From IMG/VR virus record IMGVR_UViG_3300049846_002551, positions 29,937 to 93,936 of that record: a stretch of 64,000 bases of DNA; one strand, written 5' to 3'. Below the pieces are notes generated by a model. The model ran no database searches and was not told the origin of the DNA. It saw only the letters and a list, made by a program, of their open reading frames with translations. Both the position numbers and the translations under genes were made by a program. Shown here one piece after another: positions 44,949-55,859 of this stretch (positions are counted from its first letter, which is position 1; every line of letters begins with the position of its first letter). Source of the DNA: a virus.

Positions 44949-45579
44949 AATCAGAGAATTGCGCGAGAAGTATGTGGCATCTTTAGACCAAGAAAACGCT
45001 CCGGCTATTGCTACATTCTGTCAAGATAACGGTTATACCGATGATGCGGATATCAAAAAAGTTTTGCGCTTGGCTAAAAAAGAAAATTGGGAAGCGCATC
45101 GAGTTAAACGTCGTGCTAAGTTGGCTCTTGCGCTGGAAAAACGCGAAGATAAGCTTATAGCCAAACTTGCTGATGATATGATGCAGGTTAGAGAAGGCTT
45201 TATCAAGGATCAAATCAATGAAGTCAATGATTTGCTTCCGAAAATGATTGAAGAGCTTAGAGCGAGAATGGAGACAGGGTTTTTTGACGATAAGGCTTTG
45301 ATACAAGGCATTAAATTGATGATGGAATCTCGAAGTTCCTTAATGGCTTTAATCGATAAACAATACGGTTCCGATGCTAACGCTAATGTGGCGCAACAGG
45401 GCAATCTGTTTGATTTTTTAAACCGATTGGCTTTTCTAAGTCGACTGGTTGAAGTGAATGACGGAAAAATTTCATCGGTTACATTGGACCCTTCAAACTA
45501 CAAACATTTGAGTGAGCAGGATGACAAAGAACGCACCGCTCTTACGGAATTAGATTCGGAGGTGCTCAATGAGAAATGA
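44932..45579 (+). CDS. Probable small terminase subunit
   Basis: The 215 residues are mostly helical with a central coiled coil (LEKREDKLIAKLADDMMQVR, EVNDLLPKMIEELRARM), and its end overlaps the large terminase start by 11 bases. Small terminases have an N-terminal DNA-binding part and a helical oligomer core and are nearly always next to terL. The N-terminal segment SEIRELREKYVASLDQENAPAI and TDDADIKKVLRLAKKENW could be that DNA-binding helix pair. No specific domain match is visible, so the call rests on position and composition. Confidence 0.6.
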   Translation: MLTASEIRELREKYVASLDQENAPAIATFCQDNGYTDDADIKKVLRLAKKENWEAHRVKRRAKLALALEKREDKLIAKLADDMMQVREGFIKDQINEVNDLLPKMIEELRARMETGFFDDKALIQGIKLMMESRSSLMALIDKQYGSDANANVAQQGNLFDFLNRLAFLSRLVEVNDGKISSVTLDPSNYKHLSEQDDKERTALTELDSEVLNEK

Positions 45580-48274
45580 GATTGATTCTCAAATTCACGA
45601 ACGACTTATACAAAATAAAAAGCGCGAAGCATGGGATGCAGATAGCAAAACTGTTATCGAGCATGCGCTTATGATGGGTCTTGAAGATCGAGAAGAGCTA
45701 GTTCGTAAAGCTAGAGATTTAGCTTGTACTCAAGCACCACGAACACCGACAGAGCTATGGCATGCGATACACCTTTTATTCGGGTACAAGGTTCCTTTGA
45801 CTTCTACACATCCCGATTTTAATGCACCATTTGAATGGTTTAGCAAAGCATATTTTAATGTTACAGATGACTCGGTTGCATTAGCAAGTCGTGGTTCTGG
45901 AAAAACATTGTTAGGTTCAATTCTTACAGCTATTAAATCTATTTGGAATCCTGGTTATGAGGCTGTGCATGCTGGTGGCACACAGGTGCAAGCGCACGTG
46001 GCGTCATCTTATTTGAATACGTTCTATACGTTTCCGCATTTCAAACCTTTGTTCGATGGCAAACCTGCAAAGTTTTCTGCAAGCTGGAAGAACAATTCTC
46101 AATTCAAGATCGTGACTGGAAGTATGAAAGGTGTGTCTGGTCAGCATCCTATTTTATTGACGCTCGATGAGATCGAGTTTTGGGAAATTGAAGCTTTAAC
46201 ACAGACTTTTGAAGTTCCTGTAAATAAGCAAAATTATCGGCGCGTGTGGACGGCATTCTCTACTAGACAACGATGCTTACCTGGTTATACACGAATTTTA
46301 ACCGAAGATGGGCCAATGAAAATTTCCAAGGTGGTTCGTACTCGCTATGCTGGAAAAGTTAAATCTTTTAATAGTGTAACTCAAGTATGGGAATGGAAAC
46401 AAGTTATTGATTGGTACCACAATGGTTCGAGTAGCGAATGGTTTAAAATTTATCTTGAATATACAGGATTAGGTCGGGGTTGTGAATTAATTGCAACAAA
46501 AGAACATTATGTTTACTATGCTCCAGGCAAGAAAAAACCTCTTGATCAGTTTGTAGAAGGAGATTGTTTATGTTTGCCATCTTGGTGTCCAAGCGGTGAT
46601 CAACGTCAATTATTATTAGGAACGCTGTTAGGGGATGCCTGTCTTAGTGGTGGTTCTTTACGCGTGGAGCATTCTAGCAAACAAGTTAATTATTTACGTT
46701 GGTTTGGTAGAGCTTTTAAAGAAGAAGCGTTGCCAGAAGATTATAATGAGAAGCGGGATCATTATCTACAGCGTTTAAAAGTTTCTCCATATTTACATAG
46801 ATTACAAAAAGAATGGTATCCCGATAAAGTTAAACGAATTCCAGATTATGTATGGGAAGAGCTTGACGAAAGAGGACTTGCAGTTTGGTTAATGGATGAT
46901 GGTTCATATCGTAAAGCGGGTACTAATAACGGTGGTGACACTTGGCATATTTATTGTAATCATTTTAATTCTCATGAACGCGAACAAATGCAGAAATGGT
47001 TTAAATGTCGTGGAGTTTATTTAACATGGATGGAGATGCGTCCTGGACAATTTTATGCATATATTGGTGGAGCCTACGCTCGTCTTGTTACAGAGATGGT
47101 AAAAGCGTATATTGATGTGTCTACACACCTCGGTGTGCGACAAGGATGGAAACGATGGGTTGCTTCTGATTATGTAGAAACAGGGCATGAAGGTATTGAA
47201 CAGGTGCCTATTCGTAAAATTGAAGTGCTACAAACAAATCCACAAGGATGTTATGACATTGCCGTAGAAGGAAATCATAATTACTGTAATGGTTCAAATA
47301 TATTAGTTAGCAATTCTTATGGATGTATGAACTGGTTAGTCGATGAGGCACCAAAAAGAGGTTTTTCGTTTTTTCAGTGGTCTGTGTTTGAAGTTATGCA
47401 ACCATGTATTACGTGTGAAGCTTTGGATAAAGAGCCTTATGGAGATGATGAAGCGCGTGAGTGCGTTTGTCCCCTATGGGAAGCTTGTAGAGGTGAACGC
47501 GCTAAAAAATCAAGTGGGTGGCTTCCACTAAAAGATGCACGTGATAAGTGTATTCGGTTAGGTGGACCACGTGGGAGAGAATGGCAAACACAGGGCTTGT
47601 GTAATCGCCCATCTAGTCATGGATTAGTTCTTCACAATTTTGAGCATACTTACAGACCGGATGGGAACTACACGAAGTGGGAGTACAATCCGGAATTACC
47701 GTGGTACGCAGTGCATGATCCTGCGGAGGGCAAAAAGTCTGTTATATATTTTTTGCAAATTTATGATGGTATGACATTTGTGTTTGATGAGTTAGTTGAT
47801 CCGTTATGCCCGGATGTTACCACTGCAAAACAAGCTTTCTATGAGCATTGTTTGCGAATGAAGTACCCCGATCCTGAAAAGATAGTTGTAGACCCGCATC
47901 GAACGGACGCAGTTGCTACATGGAAGTTTGGATCAAAATCTGGAGTCGGTATTTTACACTCGTATAGTGCAGATGTCCCTGATATTTCTGAGGTTTCTGG
48001 CGTTACTCAGTTCTTAACTAAAACGATTGAATTGTTGCGTCAATCAATTTGTGATGGTCGTAATCATCGTAAGCTTTTTATCAATCCAGAATATTGTCCG
48101 CATGCGGTTCGCGGAATAAAAGAGTACCACTATCCAACTGATAAGGTTACTAATGACGTAAATTCAGATATACCACAAAAAGATTATTCGGATGAAGTTG
48201 ATCCCTTACGATATTGGGAGATGTATCGTGTTACGAAATTAAATCAAGGTGGTGGAAGAATTCTTGTTTTGTAG
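45569..48274 (+). CDS. Large terminase (TerL) with intein
   Basis: The 901-residue precursor is the packaging motor. The ATPase has Walker A ASRGSGKT (about 107-114), Walker B ILLTLDEIEFW and the coupling motif TAFSTRQ. An intein (236-582) follows immediately. The nuclease half has the strand YAVHDPAEGKKSVIYFLQ with its catalytic Asp, and KIVVDPHRTDAVATW. Its Cys-rich linker (CITCEALDKEPYGDDEARECVC, CPLWEAC) may bind zinc. Excision leaves about 554 residues, normal for TerL. Start ATG 45569 overlaps the preceding gene. Confidence 0.88.
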   Translation: MRNEIDSQIHERLIQNKKREAWDADSKTVIEHALMMGLEDREELVRKARDLACTQAPRTPTELWHAIHLLFGYKVPLTSTHPDFNAPFEWFSKAYFNVTDDSVALASRGSGKTLLGSILTAIKSIWNPGYEAVHAGGTQVQAHVASSYLNTFYTFPHFKPLFDGKPAKFSASWKNNSQFKIVTGSMKGVSGQHPILLTLDEIEFWEIEALTQTFEVPVNKQNYRRVWTAFSTRQRCLPGYTRILTEDGPMKISKVVRTRYAGKVKSFNSVTQVWEWKQVIDWYHNGSSSEWFKIYLEYTGLGRGCELIATKEHYVYYAPGKKKPLDQFVEGDCLCLPSWCPSGDQRQLLLGTLLGDACLSGGSLRVEHSSKQVNYLRWFGRAFKEEALPEDYNEKRDHYLQRLKVSPYLHRLQKEWYPDKVKRIPDYVWEELDERGLAVWLMDDGSYRKAGTNNGGDTWHIYCNHFNSHEREQMQKWFKCRGVYLTWMEMRPGQFYAYIGGAYARLVTEMVKAYIDVSTHLGVRQGWKRWVASDYVETGHEGIEQVPIRKIEVLQTNPQGCYDIAVEGNHNYCNGSNILVSNSYGCMNWLVDEAPKRGFSFFQWSVFEVMQPCITCEALDKEPYGDDEARECVCPLWEACRGERAKKSSGWLPLKDARDKCIRLGGPRGREWQTQGLCNRPSSHGLVLHNFEHTYRPDGNYTKWEYNPELPWYAVHDPAEGKKSVIYFLQIYDGMTFVFDELVDPLCPDVTTAKQAFYEHCLRMKYPDPEKIVVDPHRTDAVATWKFGSKSGVGILHSYSADVPDISEVSGVTQFLTKTIELLRQSICDGRNHRKLFINPEYCPHAVRGIKEYHYPTDKVTNDVNSDIPQKDYSDEVDPLRYWEMYRVTKLNQGGGRILVL
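46274..47314 (+). mobile_element. Intein with LAGLIDADG endonuclease in TerL
   Basis: The 347-residue insert begins CLPGYTRILTEDGPMKISKV (block A, Cys1) and ends CNGSNILVSN with Ser+1 of SYGCMNW following. LLGTLLGDACLSGG and GLAVWLMDDGSYRKAG are the two LAGLIDADG-type motifs; LRVEHSSKQVNYLRWFG fits the family. Block B-like CELIATKEHYVYY is present. The penultimate residue is Ser where His is usual, so Asn cyclisation may be assisted differently. It is inserted directly after the coupling motif of the ATPase. Confidence 0.88.
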
Positions 48275-50271: not shown

Positions 50272-50297
50272 AAATTACCTATCAGTAAATATTATGG

Positions 50298-50309
50298 GAT
50301 AATAGAAAC
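50298..50309 (+). promoter_or_regulatory. -10 box with leaderless start
   Basis: GGGATAATAGAAAC puts GATAAT at 50298-50303, six bases from ATG 50310. No clear -35 exists. It fits the spacing seen at other leaderless starts here. Confidence 0.4.
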
Positions 50310-50534
50310 ATGAGCAAGGAATACCCAAACGCTTCGATTCCAAAATTAACTAAAACTGAAATGCGGGTAATGGAAAATATTGCTAAAGGTCTAACTTCTC
50401 AGCAAGTGGCAGATGCATTAGCTTTGAGTAAACGAACTGTGGATTTTCATTTGGGAAATATCTATAGTAAGTTCGACGTTTCGAATCGAGTGCAAGCGAC
50501 CAACAAAGCAAGAGCATTAGGGTTAATTGAGTAA
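50310..50534 (+). CDS. LuxR/GerE-type DNA-binding regulator
   Basis: A 74-residue protein that is almost only the LuxR-type HTH: LTKTEMRVMENIAKGLTSQQ, ALSKRTVDFHLGNIYSKF, RVQATNKARALGLI. Family members bind promoters as dimers; with no receiver or autoinducer domain it would be constitutive or need a partner. It sits just before the structured RNA region and the first of the extended -35 promoters, so it is a candidate activator of those. Probably leaderless, and coupled to the next gene by TAATG. Confidence 0.8.
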   Translation: MSKEYPNASIPKLTKTEMRVMENIAKGLTSQQVADALALSKRTVDFHLGNIYSKFDVSNRVQATNKARALGLIE

Positions 50535-50779
50535 TGCAAGAAGTGATTGAAGCGTTGCGTAAGGATGAGCATGTTGTGCAAATCAACAATACGCCATATG
50601 ATGTTTTTATACATAGAGAGGATTGCTCGTCTGATGAAGAGAACAACGCACGGTTTACTGCCAAGCATGTGTATCAATTAGTCCTGAAACCTGTTGTAGG
50701 TGGTCAATCGTTTTCGTTTTATGGAGATACGAAAGAAGTTTGTTACGATCACCTCTTAGCATTTTTTACGGAGGTGTAA
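50534..50779 (+). CDS. Hypothetical small protein
   Basis: The 81 residues include VIEALRKDEHVVQINNTPYD, a charged stretch HREDCSSDEEN and beta strands FTAKHVYQLVLKPVVGGQ. No family recognised. Start overlaps the LuxR-type gene stop. It may be a co-regulator of that gene. Confidence 0.5.
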   Translation: MQEVIEALRKDEHVVQINNTPYDVFIHREDCSSDEENNARFTAKHVYQLVLKPVVGGQSFSFYGDTKEVCYDHLLAFFTEV

Positions 50780-50780
50780 T

Positions 50781-51056
50781 GTGCGAACTGCCCATCAACC
50801 TGATGAAAGTCAGCCCCTTAACCTCAGTTCGGATGCGCTTCAATACTTGGGTGCGTTAAAAGAGTGCCATGAAGCCTTGATTGAAACGCTAGATGTCACA
50901 GATGAGATAATCAAGTTGGTAAAAGACTTTTTGGAGGGAGATGCTATAGATTCTCAGGACGTGTTGTTGTTATGCGAACGTTATGAGGTCATGTCGGCTT
51001 CCACAAGACAAAATTTTGAAATTTCAAAGTCCCCCCTTGACAAAACTACCCTTTAG
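50781..51056 (+). CDS. Hypothetical small helical protein
   Basis: A 91-residue protein from GTG 50781, two bases after the preceding stop. It is helical and acidic (SDALQYLGALKECHEALIET; LLLCERYEVMSASTRQN). An out-of-frame ATG at 50779 gives only 26 codons and is less likely. The first extended -35 promoter (51037) overlaps its last codons. Function is unknown. Confidence 0.5.
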   Translation: MRTAHQPDESQPLNLSSDALQYLGALKECHEALIETLDVTDEIIKLVKDFLEGDAIDSQDVLLLCERYEVMSASTRQNFEISKSPLDKTTL

Positions 51057-51067
51057 GGTGGTACAAT
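51037..51067 (+). promoter_or_regulatory. Extended -35 promoter, copy 1
   Basis: TTGACAAAACTAC begins at 51037 and TACAAT lies at 51062-51067 with a 19-base spacer containing GGTGG. It overlaps the stop of the previous gene (TAG 51054-51056). It should drive the small structured RNA beginning near 51074. Confidence 0.75.
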
Positions 51068-51070
51068 GAT

Positions 51071-51192
51071 TTTGTTATCGAGTGGAAACCAATAAGAGAG
51101 GCGGCGCACAGCGATAACGCTAGATTCAATGTCTGGTGGGTTTTGAGTGCTTTTCAAGTGGGATGAATAGGCTGTGCGTTGACTCTCTTTTT
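51071..51192 (+). ncRNA. Small structured RNA or leader with alternative folds and terminator
   Basis: About 120 bases directly downstream of a strong promoter, without an open frame. AAGAGAG (51094-51100) pairs with CTCTCTT (51183-51189) and CGCACAGC (51105-51112) pairs with GCTGTGCG (51171-51178), followed by a T-run (TTTTT). GTTATCG (51074-51080) can instead pair with CGATAAC (51112-51118), which conflicts in topology and by one base, so it could form a switch or a pseudoknot. Either a terminated small RNA or a riboswitch-like leader for the gene at 51249. Confidence 0.65.
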
Positions 51193-51248
51193 GTATGGTT
51201 TGCAAAAACATGGTAAAACTGTAGGGACGTTCGAAGTAGGAGAGAATA

Positions 51249-51440
51249 ATGCAATTTTATGATGTTCGCACTCGACAACATGTTGATATTCCCGACGAAA
51301 ACTGCGAAAAGGTAGTTTTTGCTAAAGGAACCAGTAAAGAACGATATGCCTTTAAAGGGGTAACTCCGGCAGGTAACAAGGTGATGAAGTTTTGCTCGAA
51401 AACGGATTACGACGCTTCGACTTTGAAAGAAGGCGCGTAA
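51249..51440 (+). CDS. Hypothetical small protein
   Basis: A 63-residue protein from ATG 51249 with GGAGAG six bases ahead. The sequence is polar with a VVFAKGTSKERYAFKG strand and CSKTDYDA. Its upstream region carries the small structured RNA, which may control it. It is the last gene before about 1.8 kb with none. No family recognised. Confidence 0.55.
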   Translation: MQFYDVRTRQHVDIPDENCEKVVFAKGTSKERYAFKGVTPAGNKVMKFCSKTDYDASTLKEGA

Positions 51441-51453
51441 GTAGGTTTGTACA

Positions 51454-52410
51454 TTGACAATTGAATAACAAGTTTACGATTTGGTCAGAACTAAACGCTA
51501 GTCGTTTGTAGTACGACCAAAAACACGGTGGTATAGCATCGTTAGATAGGGCATCGAGAGATGTGGAAAGGGATCAGGTTCTTCATACCCCCCGCTACTC
51601 CTTAAAAAGAGTAGTCATCTATGCAAGCTCAGTTGCTGTAAGCTTCAGGACCGAAAGGTATTGGAACTATACTGGTAATTGTGAAATCGAAACGTTTTAA
51701 GAAGCACGGGGGTGACACTATCGACTTCTTGGAGCCATCGGAGTAGCGTCTGATAAAGGTTTCATGCAAAGCAATGACAGTTAAGCGACGAAGAGTAGTG
51801 TTAGTGCTTGAGTTCAGTCGTGAATAAAAGCGTTAATGCAGGTGAGCGTGGAGAGCTACGCAGAAAGCGTAGCTGGAAACGTTAAATCAGACGAGTAACG
51901 TATAACGACCGTGAAAGTTAATAAGCGGTGTGTCGTATTTCTATCTTCAAAAGAGACTGAAGCGGCGGCGCACACACATCGTTATGAAGTTGCATATAGC
52001 TCAATGGTAGAGCAACGCCATGCTAGGGCGTAGGTTGCTGGTTCAAGTCCAGTTAAGCTACAAAAAAACGCACAAGTTGTGCGCCACATGATGACGACAA
52101 TTGGCCTCTGTCCTTAATCTTAGAGATGTAAGGAGCAGGAAGTCTCGCAAGGATAACCTGTAGTGTGACGAGGAACGACATAAACTCTTAGCGGGGTTGA
52201 ATTGCTGATAATAAGGCAAGTGGCAAGTACAGATTGCACAGTAGTCTCATGGTGACTGGGAAAGCATGTCCAGTATAAAAAATGCGGTCAGGCAGTCGGA
52301 CCATTCGCAAGGATGGTGGATAAGTTGGCAACAAGTATTGCAAATACTTGGTACTCCAATATAAAGCGACTGAGTATCAGGAGTAGTCTCGTCCTGTGAG
52401 TAATATGTAT
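51454..52410 (+). ncRNA. Large structured non-coding RNA region, GOLLD/ROOL-like (part 1)
   Basis: No convincing open frame and a run of strong hairpins mark this stretch as RNA. Examples are AAACG-CTAGT-CGTTT near 51493, GCATC-GAGA-GATGT near 51551, CTACTC-CTTAAAAA-GAGTAG near 51595, ACC-GAAA-GGT near 51650, AGCTACGC-AGAAA-GCGTAGCT at 51854-51874, ACCAT-TCGCAAGG-ATGGT near 52300 and CAAGTATT-GCA-AATACTTG near 52332. A tRNA-like element is embedded at 51990. GGCGCACA (51967-51974) and TGTGCGCC (52078-52085) flank it and can pair. Giant phage RNAs such as GOLLD are tRNA-associated and of this size, but the family is not proven. A weak -35 TTGACA lies at 51454. Confidence 0.6.
51990..52061 (+). 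tRNA. tRNA-like element, GCU anticodon (Ser codons), short variable loop
   Basis: D arm GCTC-AATGGTA-GAGC (51999-52013), anticodon arm ACGCC-ATGCTAG-GGCGT (52015-52031) with anticodon GCT at 52022-52024 and normal T33 and A37, T arm GCTGG-TTCAAGT-CCAGT (52037-52053). The acceptor stem TTGCATA/TAAGCTA has T-T and A-A mismatches, discriminator C, no encoded CCA. GCU would be serine, yet the long variable arm of tRNA-Ser is absent. It is a divergent tRNA, a decayed one, or a structural piece of the surrounding RNA. Confidence 0.6.
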
Positions 52411-52511
52411 TGATGGTTAACACCGTAGCTGAAAGGTAGCGGGAATGGTGTGCGGACCTACGGAGCAATCTAGGGTTCGCATTCCTCCAGGGTGTGAATC
52501 CCAAACCATCA
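52411..52511 (+). ncRNA. Closed-helix structured domain with possible pseudoknot
   Basis: TGATGGTT (52411-52418) pairs perfectly with AACCATCA (52504-52511), and ACACC next to it with GGTGT (52491-52495). Inside, CCGTAG (52423-52428) with CTACGG (52458-52463) and GGGAATG (52441-52447) with CATTCCT (52480-52486) cross each other, which would make a pseudoknot. The ends look like an acceptor stem, but the interior does not fold as a tRNA. Confidence 0.5.
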
Positions 52512-52639
52512 GTACATTTTCAAATTTTGAATTTTCAAAGCTAATTTCTAAAAACTCGAATATGAAAATGATCGAAAATTTTTTAAGGTCGTGCGCGTAT
52601 ATGGGTTTTTTGGCTGAAAACGAGTTAGTCTCTGGGGTC

Positions 52640-53250
52640 ATTTTAAGGAGTCCATAGCACCTTACTTTGGGAGATGGTGACGCGATACCCATGTAACGTC
52701 ATCTGAGGAAACCAGCCTGAATAACCAAGCTAATGAACACGAGTCCCTAGCAACGCTGGTGAAAGAGAAAACGTGTGACACTCCGGAGAGACGGAGATTT
52801 TGTTACTCCATATGTGAATTACCATTTGGTTACTCGAAAGGGTAAGTGTGGTTCCAGTACAACAGACCAAGAAGATGCTGGCGGAAGCGACGATTATGTA
52901 ATTGCGGTGACCCGAACCAAAAGCGTCGTGAACAGGTGACATCCCCGGAAAGACGGGGGCCGATTTAGTTATAGGGTCGTAATCCGACATTGCTGTTGCT
53001 CGGCGGCAAAATCATGAGCGAACTAAAGAAATGGTGAAACACGCAGTAGGTAGTCGCTACTGATATGATGTTAGCAATAACATTGAAAATCCCCCAGCCG
53101 GAGGGGTCAGACTTAAAAAGGAATAGCGCAATTCTTCCCTAACCCGGACTCTAACCTGAGATGACTGGCAAAGTGCCAATCCCCGGAACAAGCGGTGCAA
53201 CGAAGAGATAGCTACTCGGATACGTCGAAAGTTCGTACTTGCCGGGGATT
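52640..53250 (+). ncRNA. Large structured non-coding RNA region (part 2) with 3' terminator-like helix
   Basis: Again no gene, only hairpins: TTACTC-GAAA-GGGTAA near 52829, CTCCG-GAGAGA-CGGAG (52781-52796), CCCCG-GAAAGA-CGGGG (52943-52958), CAGTAG-GTAGTCG-CTACTG near 53044 and CCCC-CAGCCGGA-GGGG near 53092. The end is defined by AATCCCCGG (about 53179-53187) pairing with CCGGGGATT (about 53243-53251) followed by a T-run, a terminator-like closing helix just before tRNA-Glu. The AT-rich stretch 52512-52640 separates it from the preceding domain. Whether parts 1 and 2 are one transcript or two RNAs is unknown. Confidence 0.55.
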
Positions 53251-53253
53251 TTT

Positions 53254-53328
53254 GGCCTCTTGGTCTATCGGTTATGATCTCCGGCTTTCTACCGGAAGAG
53301 ACGGGTTCGACTCCCGTAGAGGCTACCA
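53254..53328 (+). tRNA. tRNA-Glu (anticodon UUC)
   Basis: Acceptor GGCCTCT/AGAGGCT with one G-T pair, discriminator A and encoded CCA (53326-53328). The anticodon arm is TCCGG-CTTTCTA-CCGGA with anticodon TTC, and the T arm ACGGG-TTCGACT-CCCGT. The D arm starts GTC. Its overall sequence resembles bacterial tRNA-Glu. It directly follows the terminator-like helix of the structured RNA and its 3' end lies just before a promoter for the endolysin gene. Confidence 0.9.
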
Positions 53329-53343
53329 AAACTTTACTGGTGG

Positions 53344-53355
53344 TAGAATTCTTGT
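53344..53355 (+). promoter_or_regulatory. -10 promoter element, leaderless endolysin start
   Basis: GGTGGTAGAAT gives TAGAAT at 53344-53349, six bases from ATG 53356. CAAAACTTT upstream echoes the other promoter family but at shorter spacing. Confidence 0.5.
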
Positions 53356-53916
53356 ATGGCTAATGATCAAAAACCGTGGCGTAACAAGATTCCCATTCCT
53401 TACAAAGGCATTAACACTAGATATTCCCCTGCCCGTGTTAGTACAATGAAAGCCGTATTCGGAAGTCCAGTTGGTAAATTGACCAATGACTGTAACGAAG
53501 ATGCTATATCTCCAAAGATTGCGAAACGGATTAAGACCAGAAAAATCGGCAAGTGGAAGTTTCGAGGTCTTGATCTGTTTCTTGATGTAATTGAACAAGT
53601 TTTTGCCGAGTATGCGGTGAAATATCCGGATGCCTACAACGATCTTCATCAAGAAGGCATGCTTTGTGTTCGTTTAGTTCGCGGCAGTAAGTCGCAACCA
53701 AGCAATCATTCTTGGGGTACGGCAGTTGACTTAGGGTTTGGAGATGCCGTTGACAGTCGAGGCGATGGCTTTTGTTTTAAAGGGATGCTCGACCTGTATG
53801 CTATCGCTAAAAAATATAAGCTTTTTTGGGGTGCATCCTTTAGCACCGAAGATGCAATGCATTTTGAGGCTTCAGAGCAGTTGGTTCGGGAGTGGTCGGA
53901 AACAGGCTTAATTTAA
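53356..53916 (+). CDS. Endolysin-type peptidase (M15/VanY-like)
   Basis: The 186-residue protein has SNHSWGTAVDLGFGD (about 116-130) and DAMHFEAS (about 166-173), the zinc-binding His, Asp and His of M15 D-Ala-D-Ala carboxypeptidases and L-Ala-D-Glu endopeptidases, which cleave peptidoglycan peptides. No signal peptide or separate cell-wall-binding domain is visible, so a holin or another export route would be needed; no clear holin gene adjoins it, though the next small gene encodes a membrane peptide. Start supported by leaderless spacing. Confidence 0.8.
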   Translation: MANDQKPWRNKIPIPYKGINTRYSPARVSTMKAVFGSPVGKLTNDCNEDAISPKIAKRIKTRKIGKWKFRGLDLFLDVIEQVFAEYAVKYPDAYNDLHQEGMLCVRLVRGSKSQPSNHSWGTAVDLGFGDAVDSRGDGFCFKGMLDLYAIAKKYKLFWGASFSTEDAMHFEASEQLVREWSETGLI

Positions 53917-53920
53917 GTAT

Positions 53921-53951
53921 TTGACAAAACTACTCTTAATGGTGGTATAGT
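53921..53951 (+). promoter_or_regulatory. Extended -35 promoter, copy 2
   Basis: TTGACAAAACTACT at 53921 and TATAGT at 53946-53951 with a 19-base spacer ending GGTGG. It starts the transcription unit of the small membrane peptide and the XRE regulator. Confidence 0.8.
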
Positions 53952-53971
53952 ACTTGTGTTGAGGTGATGTA

Positions 53972-54446: not shown

Positions 54447-55859
54447 ATGAAAAGCGAATTGATTTATGACCGAAAATCGGATGGAATCCAATCATCGGAT
54501 TACTTAGGAGATGCGATGATTGATCCGATGGACATCTATGGTTTTCCAAACTTGAAAAAAGGCGATGATCCGGTCATTAAGGATCATCCGGAATTTCCGA
54601 ATCCAAGAACAGGTCCGCTTGATCGCACTCTCATTGATGAGATTAAAGAAGCAGGTCAACTGATTGAGCCTATTGCAATTTATTTTCATGAAGAAAAAGG
54701 AAAAGAAGTTGCCGTTCTAGTCAACGGAAAAACACGGTTGACAGCGGTTGCGGAAGCATGGGCCGAGGATGGAACAACAGATAAGTTTCGTTTGATACCT
54801 TATGTTGTTGTGACTGGTACACCTATGGAGATTCAATTTTTACAAGCGAAGATGAATCTCGAAGATTCAAGACGACCTTTATCGAATGTGGAAACTGCGG
54901 ACTTCTTATCAAAAATGGAAGAAGCGTATGGTTTGACCGAAGAACAACAGTTGGAATATTTGAAGAAGCCTGTTAATCAAGGAACGATTCGTTGGCTTCG
55001 AGAATCGAAAGCTGTTGCTGGAGATAGCATCGTGCGCGAAGCCTTAGAGGAAGGTGTGATCGATGCCACTACTGCAAAATCTTTGACTAAAATTGAAGAT
55101 GAACAAGAAAAGAAAGATGCGCTGAAGCAGGTTCAAGATAGTAAGTCGCAAGGCAAAACTGAGCGTCAAGCACGTCAAACCATCAAAGCGAAAACTAAAA
55201 CTGCAAAAGGCAGTAAAACGGGTGTATTGCGAACAGGAAATCGAACGACTCTTGGGTGGAAAGCAGGGTTGGAGCTTCTTCAAGAATATTACCCATACGC
55301 TAAAGTTGCATTTCAAAATAATCTCGATGTAGATAAGATCGATTGGAAGTCACGAGATGAACGTGAAGCTTTTCTCTTTGATCAAGAGGTTATGGCGCGA
55401 TTTGATATCGTGGTAAAATTTATGAAGTTGGACACGCTGACTATGCTTCAATTGTGCTCAACGATTGAAGAAATATTTGGGCCAGAAGAGTGCAAGGCGA
55501 TGAATGTTATCGACTGGATGCCAACACCAACTAAACGTGATATTGACGAAGGAGTTTCTGTGGGAACTAAGACACCAAAAACGAAACAAGACGCGGTAAA
55601 AAAACCCGTAACTAAAACAACGAAAACAAAACCAAAGGTTAAGAAGGAACCAAAGGTTAAGAAGGAACCAAAGGTTAAGAAGGAACCAAAGGTTAAGAAG
55701 GAACCAAAGGTTAAGAAGGAACCAAAGGTTAAGAAGGAACCAAAGGTTAAGAAGGAACCAAAGGTTAAGAAAATTGCGACTAAAACAACGACTAAGGCTC
55801 CAAAAAAGGAGAGTACGCCTAAACCGACAAAGAAAGCGCGACCACGTTCGCCTCTCTAG
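54447..55859 (+). CDS. ParB-like protein with Lys-rich repeat tail
   Basis: The 470-residue protein begins with a ParB/sulfiredoxin-type fold: AMIDPMDIYGFPN, LIDEIKEAGQLIEPIAIY, AVLVNGKTRLTAVAEAW, followed by a helical region with STIRWL-type HTH elements (QGTIRWLRESKAVAGDSIV). The last 110 residues are basic and contain eight copies of a PKVKKE-type hexapeptide, then an unordered Lys/Thr/Pro tail. ParB relatives bind DNA or act as nucleases or CTPases; the tail likely adds non-specific DNA binding. The repeat array invites length variation. A strong Shine-Dalgarno and a terminator flank it. Confidence 0.75.
   Translation: MKSELIYDRKSDGIQSSDYLGDAMIDPMDIYGFPNLKKGDDPVIKDHPEFPNPRTGPLDRTLIDEIKEAGQLIEPIAIYFHEEKGKEVAVLVNGKTRLTAVAEAWAEDGTTDKFRLIPYVVVTGTPMEIQFLQAKMNLEDSRRPLSNVETADFLSKMEEAYGLTEEQQLEYLKKPVNQGTIRWLRESKAVAGDSIVREALEEGVIDATTAKSLTKIEDEQEKKDALKQVQDSKSQGKTERQARQTIKAKTKTAKGSKTGVLRTGNRTTLGWKAGLELLQEYYPYAKVAFQNNLDVDKIDWKSRDEREAFLFDQEVMARFDIVVKFMKLDTLTMLQLCSTIEEIFGPEECKAMNVIDWMPTPTKRDIDEGVSVGTKTPKTKQDAVKKPVTKTTKTKPKVKKEPKVKKEPKVKKEPKVKKEPKVKKEPKVKKEPKVKKEPKVKKIATKTTTKAPKKESTPKPTKKARPRSPL
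55632..55772 (+). repeat. Eight tandem 18-base repeats in the ParB-like gene
   Basis: The unit CCAAAGGTTAAGAAGGAA is repeated in frame from 55632; the eighth begins at 55758 and diverges after twelve to fifteen bases. It encodes PKVKKE. The copies are identical, suggesting recent expansion by slippage or recombination. Confidence 0.95.

Follow-up and report, generated by a model that had tools for sequence, protein, structure and literature searches.

A relative of the RNA analysed here is GOLLD env-38, 14 copies of which assemble into a hollow cage that encloses the variable linker (PMC12286853). In the cryo-EM structure of this 14-mer, linker nucleotides 497–538 are disordered within the cage (PMC12286853), and the authors report that the variable linker of GOLLD sometimes contains a phage tRNA (PMC12286853). 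According to work cited in a passage of PMC7567579, a Lactobacillus prophage, the one phage examined in this respect, does not need GOLLD to produce phage. We analysed a 64,000-nt stretch of DNA (the window) from an IMG/VR virus record of 93.9 kb; no close relative of this record was found among annotated phages. An initial annotation of the window had described positions 51441–53253 as a single giant structured RNA of about 1.8 kb that might belong to either GOLLD or ROOL. Instead, the region reads best as two things, GOLLD (~51441–52400) and a separate, neighbouring noncoding block. For the whole account, namely, a divergent GOLLD with a captive tRNA-like linker and a separate block downstream, we estimate a probability of about 0.8.

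The noncoding region begins directly behind a 63-aa ORF, whose stop codon ends at 51440, and, in agreement with the initial annotation, holds no credible gene: no ORF longer than 91 aa is present in 51441–53253 on either strand. Among annotated phages, no near or distant DNA matches to the region were detected beyond tRNA-shaped ones and a short motif; E. coli genomes yielded one weak motif match only, and plasmids gave no meaningful match to the stretch after GOLLD. When folding energies were compared with those of dinucleotide shuffles (60 per block), 51441–51922 (z = −3.1), 51923–52400 (z = −2.2) and 52396–52520 (z = −4.1) stood out, with coding controls at z = +0.9 to +1.4, whereas 52640–53253 as a whole was no more stable than its shuffles (z = −0.8). 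Thus, the dense series of strong hairpins originally reported for the entire region holds only for the first 1.1 kb.

At the curated Rfam cut-offs, only two tRNAs were reported for the window. When the search was run with an E-value threshold (E ≤ 10) as well, the GOLLD family model RF02032 matched 51923–52395 on the plus strand over its full length (model positions 1–416 of 416, 120.6 bits, E = 1.6 × 10−32; E = 1.1 × 10−34 in the per-genome search). The score is below the gathering cut-off of 150 bits, so that a scan at curated thresholds alone would have hidden GOLLD. This cut-off is the curators' choice, not a biological feature, and it is likewise not reached by three GOLLDs whose loci were picked with the GOLLD hairpin pattern (L282, 131 bits; L316, 149.6 bits; L291, 127 bits; all E ≤ 4 × 10−36). 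RF02032 matched 45 of the 48 tested records picked by this pattern, with 127–331 bits, whereas 48 other phage records gave no match at E ≤ 0.001; the window score lies just under the range of these matches and close to the scores of other GOLLDs whose linker holds a tRNA (131–200 bits). The conserved first hairpin of the 3′ domain, with a UCAAAAG loop, is located at 51935–51963 (plus strand); it consists of 9 bp in 87 loci and has two mismatches in the window copy. The hairpin pattern matched the window once, against no match in 100 shuffles, and at least 119 IMG/VR stretches overall; the helix has 4 or more pairs in 88 of these stretches and 7 or more in 87.

On this evidence, ~51441–52400 is almost certainly a divergent member of the GOLLD family, and membership is secure apart from the curated cut-off. 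An RNA of the ROOL family, or another catalogued large RNA, would also fit the size and the phage and tRNA settings; however, no Rfam family other than GOLLD and tRNA, ROOL included, had a meaningful match in the window at E ≤ 10, which leaves this assignment with a negligible chance of being correct. The covariance scan proposed along with the initial annotation thus settled the choice of family in favour of GOLLD and against ROOL, with a full-length match below the cut-off. GOLLD was absent from the 12 searched records that encode relatives (~50% identical) of the ribonucleotide reductase genes neighbouring the RNA in the window. Two of the other records contain two GOLLD matches each: in the L313 record (G070), both are strong (322 and 312 bits), and the second match in the 424-kb L309 record (G048) is weak (40 bits).

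The Rfam model does not cover the 5′ domain of GOLLD, a less conserved region of ~420 nt directly upstream of the 3′ domain. In the window, we assign this domain to 51441–51922 (plus strand; start uncertain by ~50 nt) on the basis of its folding (z = −3.1) and of a covariance model, CM R1, which was built from the last 130 nt of the 5′ domain in 10 related GOLLDs, with the window left out. The best match of CM R1 in the window, 51790–51924 (E = 1.2 × 10−4, 184 kb searched), sits exactly upstream of the 3′ domain, and a held-out GOLLD, L325, scored E = 1.3 × 10−7. Because of this location, both GOLLD domains are taken to be present, with the RNA spanning ~51441–52400; the comparison covers the last ~135 nt of the 5′ domain, and the upstream 350 nt are placed by position only. 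A sequence profile derived from 42 other GOLLD 5′ domains missed that of the window.

The tRNA-like element that had been noticed inside the region is borne out and sits in the variable linker of GOLLD. It occupies 51989–52062 (plus strand, 74 nt, anticodon GCU, GCT in the DNA) and was called a tRNA by both Rfam (51.7 bits) and ARAGORN. The D, anticodon and T arms of the cloverleaf are present and pair 1:72 is kept, but this domain has neither a fully paired acceptor stem (two mismatches) nor the long variable arm of tRNA-Ser, and CCA is not encoded. Of the 87 GOLLD loci, 9 have a tRNA called by ARAGORN at a distance of +54 to +64 from the first hairpin; the anticodons are those of Asn (2), Pro, Gln, Arg and Leu, the last in four copies of a single locus. 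Two further cases were recognized by eye: L385 has a tRNA-like linker whose acceptor end is open, and the tRNA in L325 is degenerate.

Counting the window, there are 7 independent called linker tRNAs, each with one or two acceptor mismatches, and pair 1:72 is missing in 5 of them. By contrast, pair 1:72 is present in 87% of the 411 free tRNAs of the same loci, and 260 of the 411 showed no acceptor mismatch under a simple counting heuristic that is biased towards too many mismatches in free tRNAs. A long variable arm, found in all 16 free tRNA-Ser and in 31 of the 39 free tRNA-Leu, is missing from the linker tRNAs with Ser and Leu anticodons. The D, anticodon and T arms are paired in all linker tRNAs; CCA is encoded by none of the 7, nor by any free tRNA.

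tRNA bodies with a damaged acceptor are expected to be poor substrates for RNase P and for aminoacyl-tRNA synthetases. Given that acceptor mismatches are common in linker tRNAs and uncommon in free ones, we infer that the linker tRNAs stay in the RNA and have no role in translation; the domain in the window is, accordingly, probably not a working free tRNA. The alternative is that a working tRNA is cut out of the transcript, whereby GOLLD would be, in part, a tRNA-gene carrier. This would agree with the ordinary tRNA called by Rfam and ARAGORN, with the anticodon stems paired in every case and with pair 1:72 in the window copy, but not with the recurrent acceptor mismatches, the loss of pair 1:72 in 5 of 7 cases, Ser and Leu anticodons on bodies without a long variable arm, and a single fixed position shared by differing anticodons; we consider it unlikely.

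Under the preferred reading, that of a captive linker, the 5′ and 3′ domains of 51441–52400 would fold separately, and the window copy belongs to a group of GOLLDs with a tRNA-like linker that retains intact D, anticodon and T arms on a damaged acceptor stem. Such damage would make for poor RNase P processing and poor charging, so that the tRNA would stay uncut and be displayed inside the cage. The family membership, the position of the tRNA, its recurrence with different anticodons and the acceptor damage are direct observations; the cage and the internal location of the linker would carry over to the window copy by analogy with the published structure of another GOLLD. The displayed domain would most likely capture a factor that recognizes the tRNA body or the anticodon, with host factors that bind or cut tRNAs, or parts of the ribosome, as candidate partners, although such a capture or decoy role is a tentative proposal. 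We did not find the acceptor damage of linker tRNAs described in the literature searched; the original 2009 GOLLD paper may already note tRNA detail. GOLLDs that combine a damaged-acceptor tRNA linker with changing anticodons offer a direct, testable handle on the function of GOLLD.

The second half of the region, 52405–53253 (~850 nt), is neither GOLLD nor ROOL and gives no indication of a single giant fold. It opens with a very stable, four-way cloverleaf-like fold at 52405–52516 (plus strand; 13-bp closing stem, three arms, z = −5.9 with 200 shuffles), which was called neither as a tRNA (default stringency, introns allowed or not) nor as a tmRNA, and continues with an A+T-rich spacer at 52517–52640 (plus strand; 32% G+C, 37% T). 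At its 3′ end, the terminator-like closing helix of the initial annotation is found, on sequence and fold, at 53179–53253 (plus strand), where ATCCCCGG pairs with CCGGGGAT and TTTTT follows; tRNA-Glu (UUC; Rfam and ARAGORN) comes directly after it at 53254–53328 (plus strand), likewise as described.

Between spacer and terminator lie two copies of a pseudoknot-hairpin element with the order P1, conserved loop, 5′ strand of P2 (GAAC..), 3′ strand of P1, 3′ strand of P2 (..GU), GACA and P3, where P3 is the hairpin NNNCG GARAGA CGNNN; in both copies, P3 is preceded by GTGACA. Copy A spans 52711–52796 (plus strand), with P1 (52711–52716/52755–52760) and P2 (52737–52741/52772–52776) read directly from the sequence, GACA at 52777–52780 and P3 at 52781–52796 (GAGAGA loop at 52786). 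Copy B spans 52887–52959 (plus strand), with P1 at 52887–52892/52924–52929, P2 at 52916–52918/52935–52937, GACA at 52938–52941 and P3 at 52942–52959 (GAAAGA loop at 52948); the region of copy B includes a 95-nt similarity to phage zth2-2. All three helices can form in both copies. The GARAGA-loop hairpins singled out in the initial annotation exist and belong to a genuine, strongly covarying motif.

A scan with GTGACANNNCGGARAGACG yielded at least 114 distinct matches in viral contigs and at least 116 in bacterial contigs. The pattern TAATTGCGG...GGTGACA was too loose, with L427 alone being real among 66 matches. Among the matches listed, the far-side NNN was fully Watson-Crick in 60 viral and 40 bacterial cases (1 in 64 expected). 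Of the 229 distinct matches listed, 99 were fully Watson-Crick, a further 36 deviated by one G-U and 2 by one A-C; this excess of G-U over A-C shows selection on RNA in this orientation. P2 (GA-ACNNN ... NNNGU-GACA) was complementary in 67 of the 148 listed loci, compared to 19.5 ± 4.0 with shuffled partners, and involved 21 different strands. P1, which would form a pseudoknot with P2, is supported on average (score 9.00 vs. 8.18 ± 0.21) and is strong in single cases, e.g. L018, L114, L228 and L230. Alignment A2 was picked for complementary P2, which makes its pair counts circular for that helix; the unbiased tests are the comparison of P2 with shuffled partners, the P1 score and the G-U vs. 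A-C count. CM R2, a covariance model that covers P2 and P3 and was made with the window left out, detected copy A (34.5 bits, E = 2.5 × 10−6; the alignment uses an alternative 5′ partner for P2) and copy B (24.7 bits, E = 4 × 10−4). Over the whole 93.9-kb record, the model found exactly these two (E = 3.4 × 10−6 and 5.6 × 10−4), and it gave no match with E < 0.05 when run on 1.0 Mb of DNA from other phages.

Well over 100 contigs, from phages and from bacteria, carry the element, and the genomes concerned include those of many bacterial phyla. Among the 152 distinct paired loci listed, a tRNA is present within 1 kb in 32, antisense in none, and starts 4–11 nt downstream of the element in 14. 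The window copies are 162 nt apart, resembling the 160-nt spacing in L148, where tandem GTGACA elements at 2479 and 2639 are followed by tRNA-Met. In L206, two GTGACA elements flank a tRNA-Met, and L029 has two tandem copies. Elsewhere, the element directly precedes an HNH endonuclease gene (L144, 1674–2492, minus strand) or, in Bacteroides phage BS-TP2 (L032, 2493–2653), lies a short distance before NinG and HNH genes. Its neighbours vary (portal, primosomal, HNH and ssDNA-binding genes), which excludes a tie to one common neighbour gene; a DNA-level element is ruled out by the strand bias and the preference for G-U over A-C, and a group I intron was rejected after no Rfam match was obtained in the 27 loci scanned.

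At the sites of the element, no Rfam 15 family matched above or below cut-off, and neither the motif sequence nor the pseudoknot element was found in the literature searched. The leading ideas for its role are a processing or self-cleaving element and an antitermination RNA. We lean, by a narrow margin of confidence, towards the joint reading that the GARAGA hairpins represent a widespread, undescribed class of pseudoknotted phage RNA that acts on RNA, always on the strand of the neighbouring tRNA and with a processing, antitermination or self-cleaving role, and that GOLLD linker tRNAs are captive mimics inside the cage. If the element indeed acts as a ribozyme, in processing or in antitermination, phage genomes would turn out to share a common component that is new.

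These data also bear on whether the entire 1.8 kb could be a single giant RNA, consisting of GOLLD and 3′ tRNA-like and pseudoknot modules and ending at the T5 tract. The lack of genes, the use of one strand throughout, the similarly purine-rich halves, the terminator-like helix at 53179–53253 and a scan of 50295–53418 that finds no promoter-like site are all compatible with such an RNA. However, the GOLLD model stops at 52395, 52640–53253 folds no better than its shuffles (z = −0.8), the pseudoknot element stands alone in many phages, and it accompanies GOLLD elsewhere in one weak case among 87 loci; a single RNA thus seems improbable. Still less plausible is a decayed tRNA array, i.e. degenerate tRNAs and spacers without function: the degenerate acceptor at 51989–52062, the cloverleaf without tRNA identity at 52405–52516 and the tRNA-Glu at the end of the region might be viewed as its remains, but the fully kept GOLLD structure (E = 1.6 × 10−32) contradicts it for that part, and both pseudoknot copies are intact.

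The gene downstream, 53356–53916, encodes an M15-type peptidase (Pfam), possibly an endolysin. Upstream of GOLLD, 51039–51198 contains a promoter-like site, TTGACA...TACAAT, followed by ~100 nt closed by a hairpin (GAGAGGCGGCGCACAGC...GCTGTGCGTTGACTCTCTTTTT), and is likely to be a small RNA; 51057–51248 folds with z = −2.4 (dinucleotide shuffles). A promoter- or operator-like repeat with an internal inverted repeat, TTGACAAAACTACYCTTWAKGGTGGTAYA, is present at 51040–51072 and 53924–53956, preceding the likely small RNA and a downstream operon, respectively. Further away, 45569–48274 encodes a 901-aa protein, probably the terminase large subunit, with a LAGLIDADG homing endonuclease inside a likely intein (PF03161; PF14890 weak), and 54447–55859 encodes a ParB-like protein (PHROG 1033) whose C-terminal part includes a run of KVKKEP repeats.

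Among known systems, no close family is available for 52711–52959; small regulatory or catalytic RNAs with a pseudoknot come closest in shape, and this element resembles them in combining a pseudoknot and a hairpin compactly, in having unpaired bases that are conserved and in sharing the strand of the neighbouring tRNA, although it has no Rfam 15 match. The long noncoding RNA of Vibrio phage ICP1 (PMC7567579), a transcript of ~800 nt in a 1-kb ORF-less gap by lysis genes, is similar by description; ICP1 has no tRNAs. ROOL is another large, cage-forming phage RNA near tRNAs, but its model has no match in the window at E ≤ 10. Compared to GOLLD (RF02032 and env-38; PMC12286853), the window copy differs in its score below the Rfam cut-off, in a GCU linker tRNA with acceptor mismatches and without a long variable arm, and in the unrelated noncoding block downstream. 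It is like GOLLD in being an RNA of more than 800 nt from a phage (an IMG/VR virus record), with the 3′-domain model fully matched and the 5′ domain recovered by a separate model, a tRNA-Glu 0.9 kb downstream and a possible endolysin gene nearby, and in carrying, as reported for some GOLLDs, a tRNA in its variable linker.
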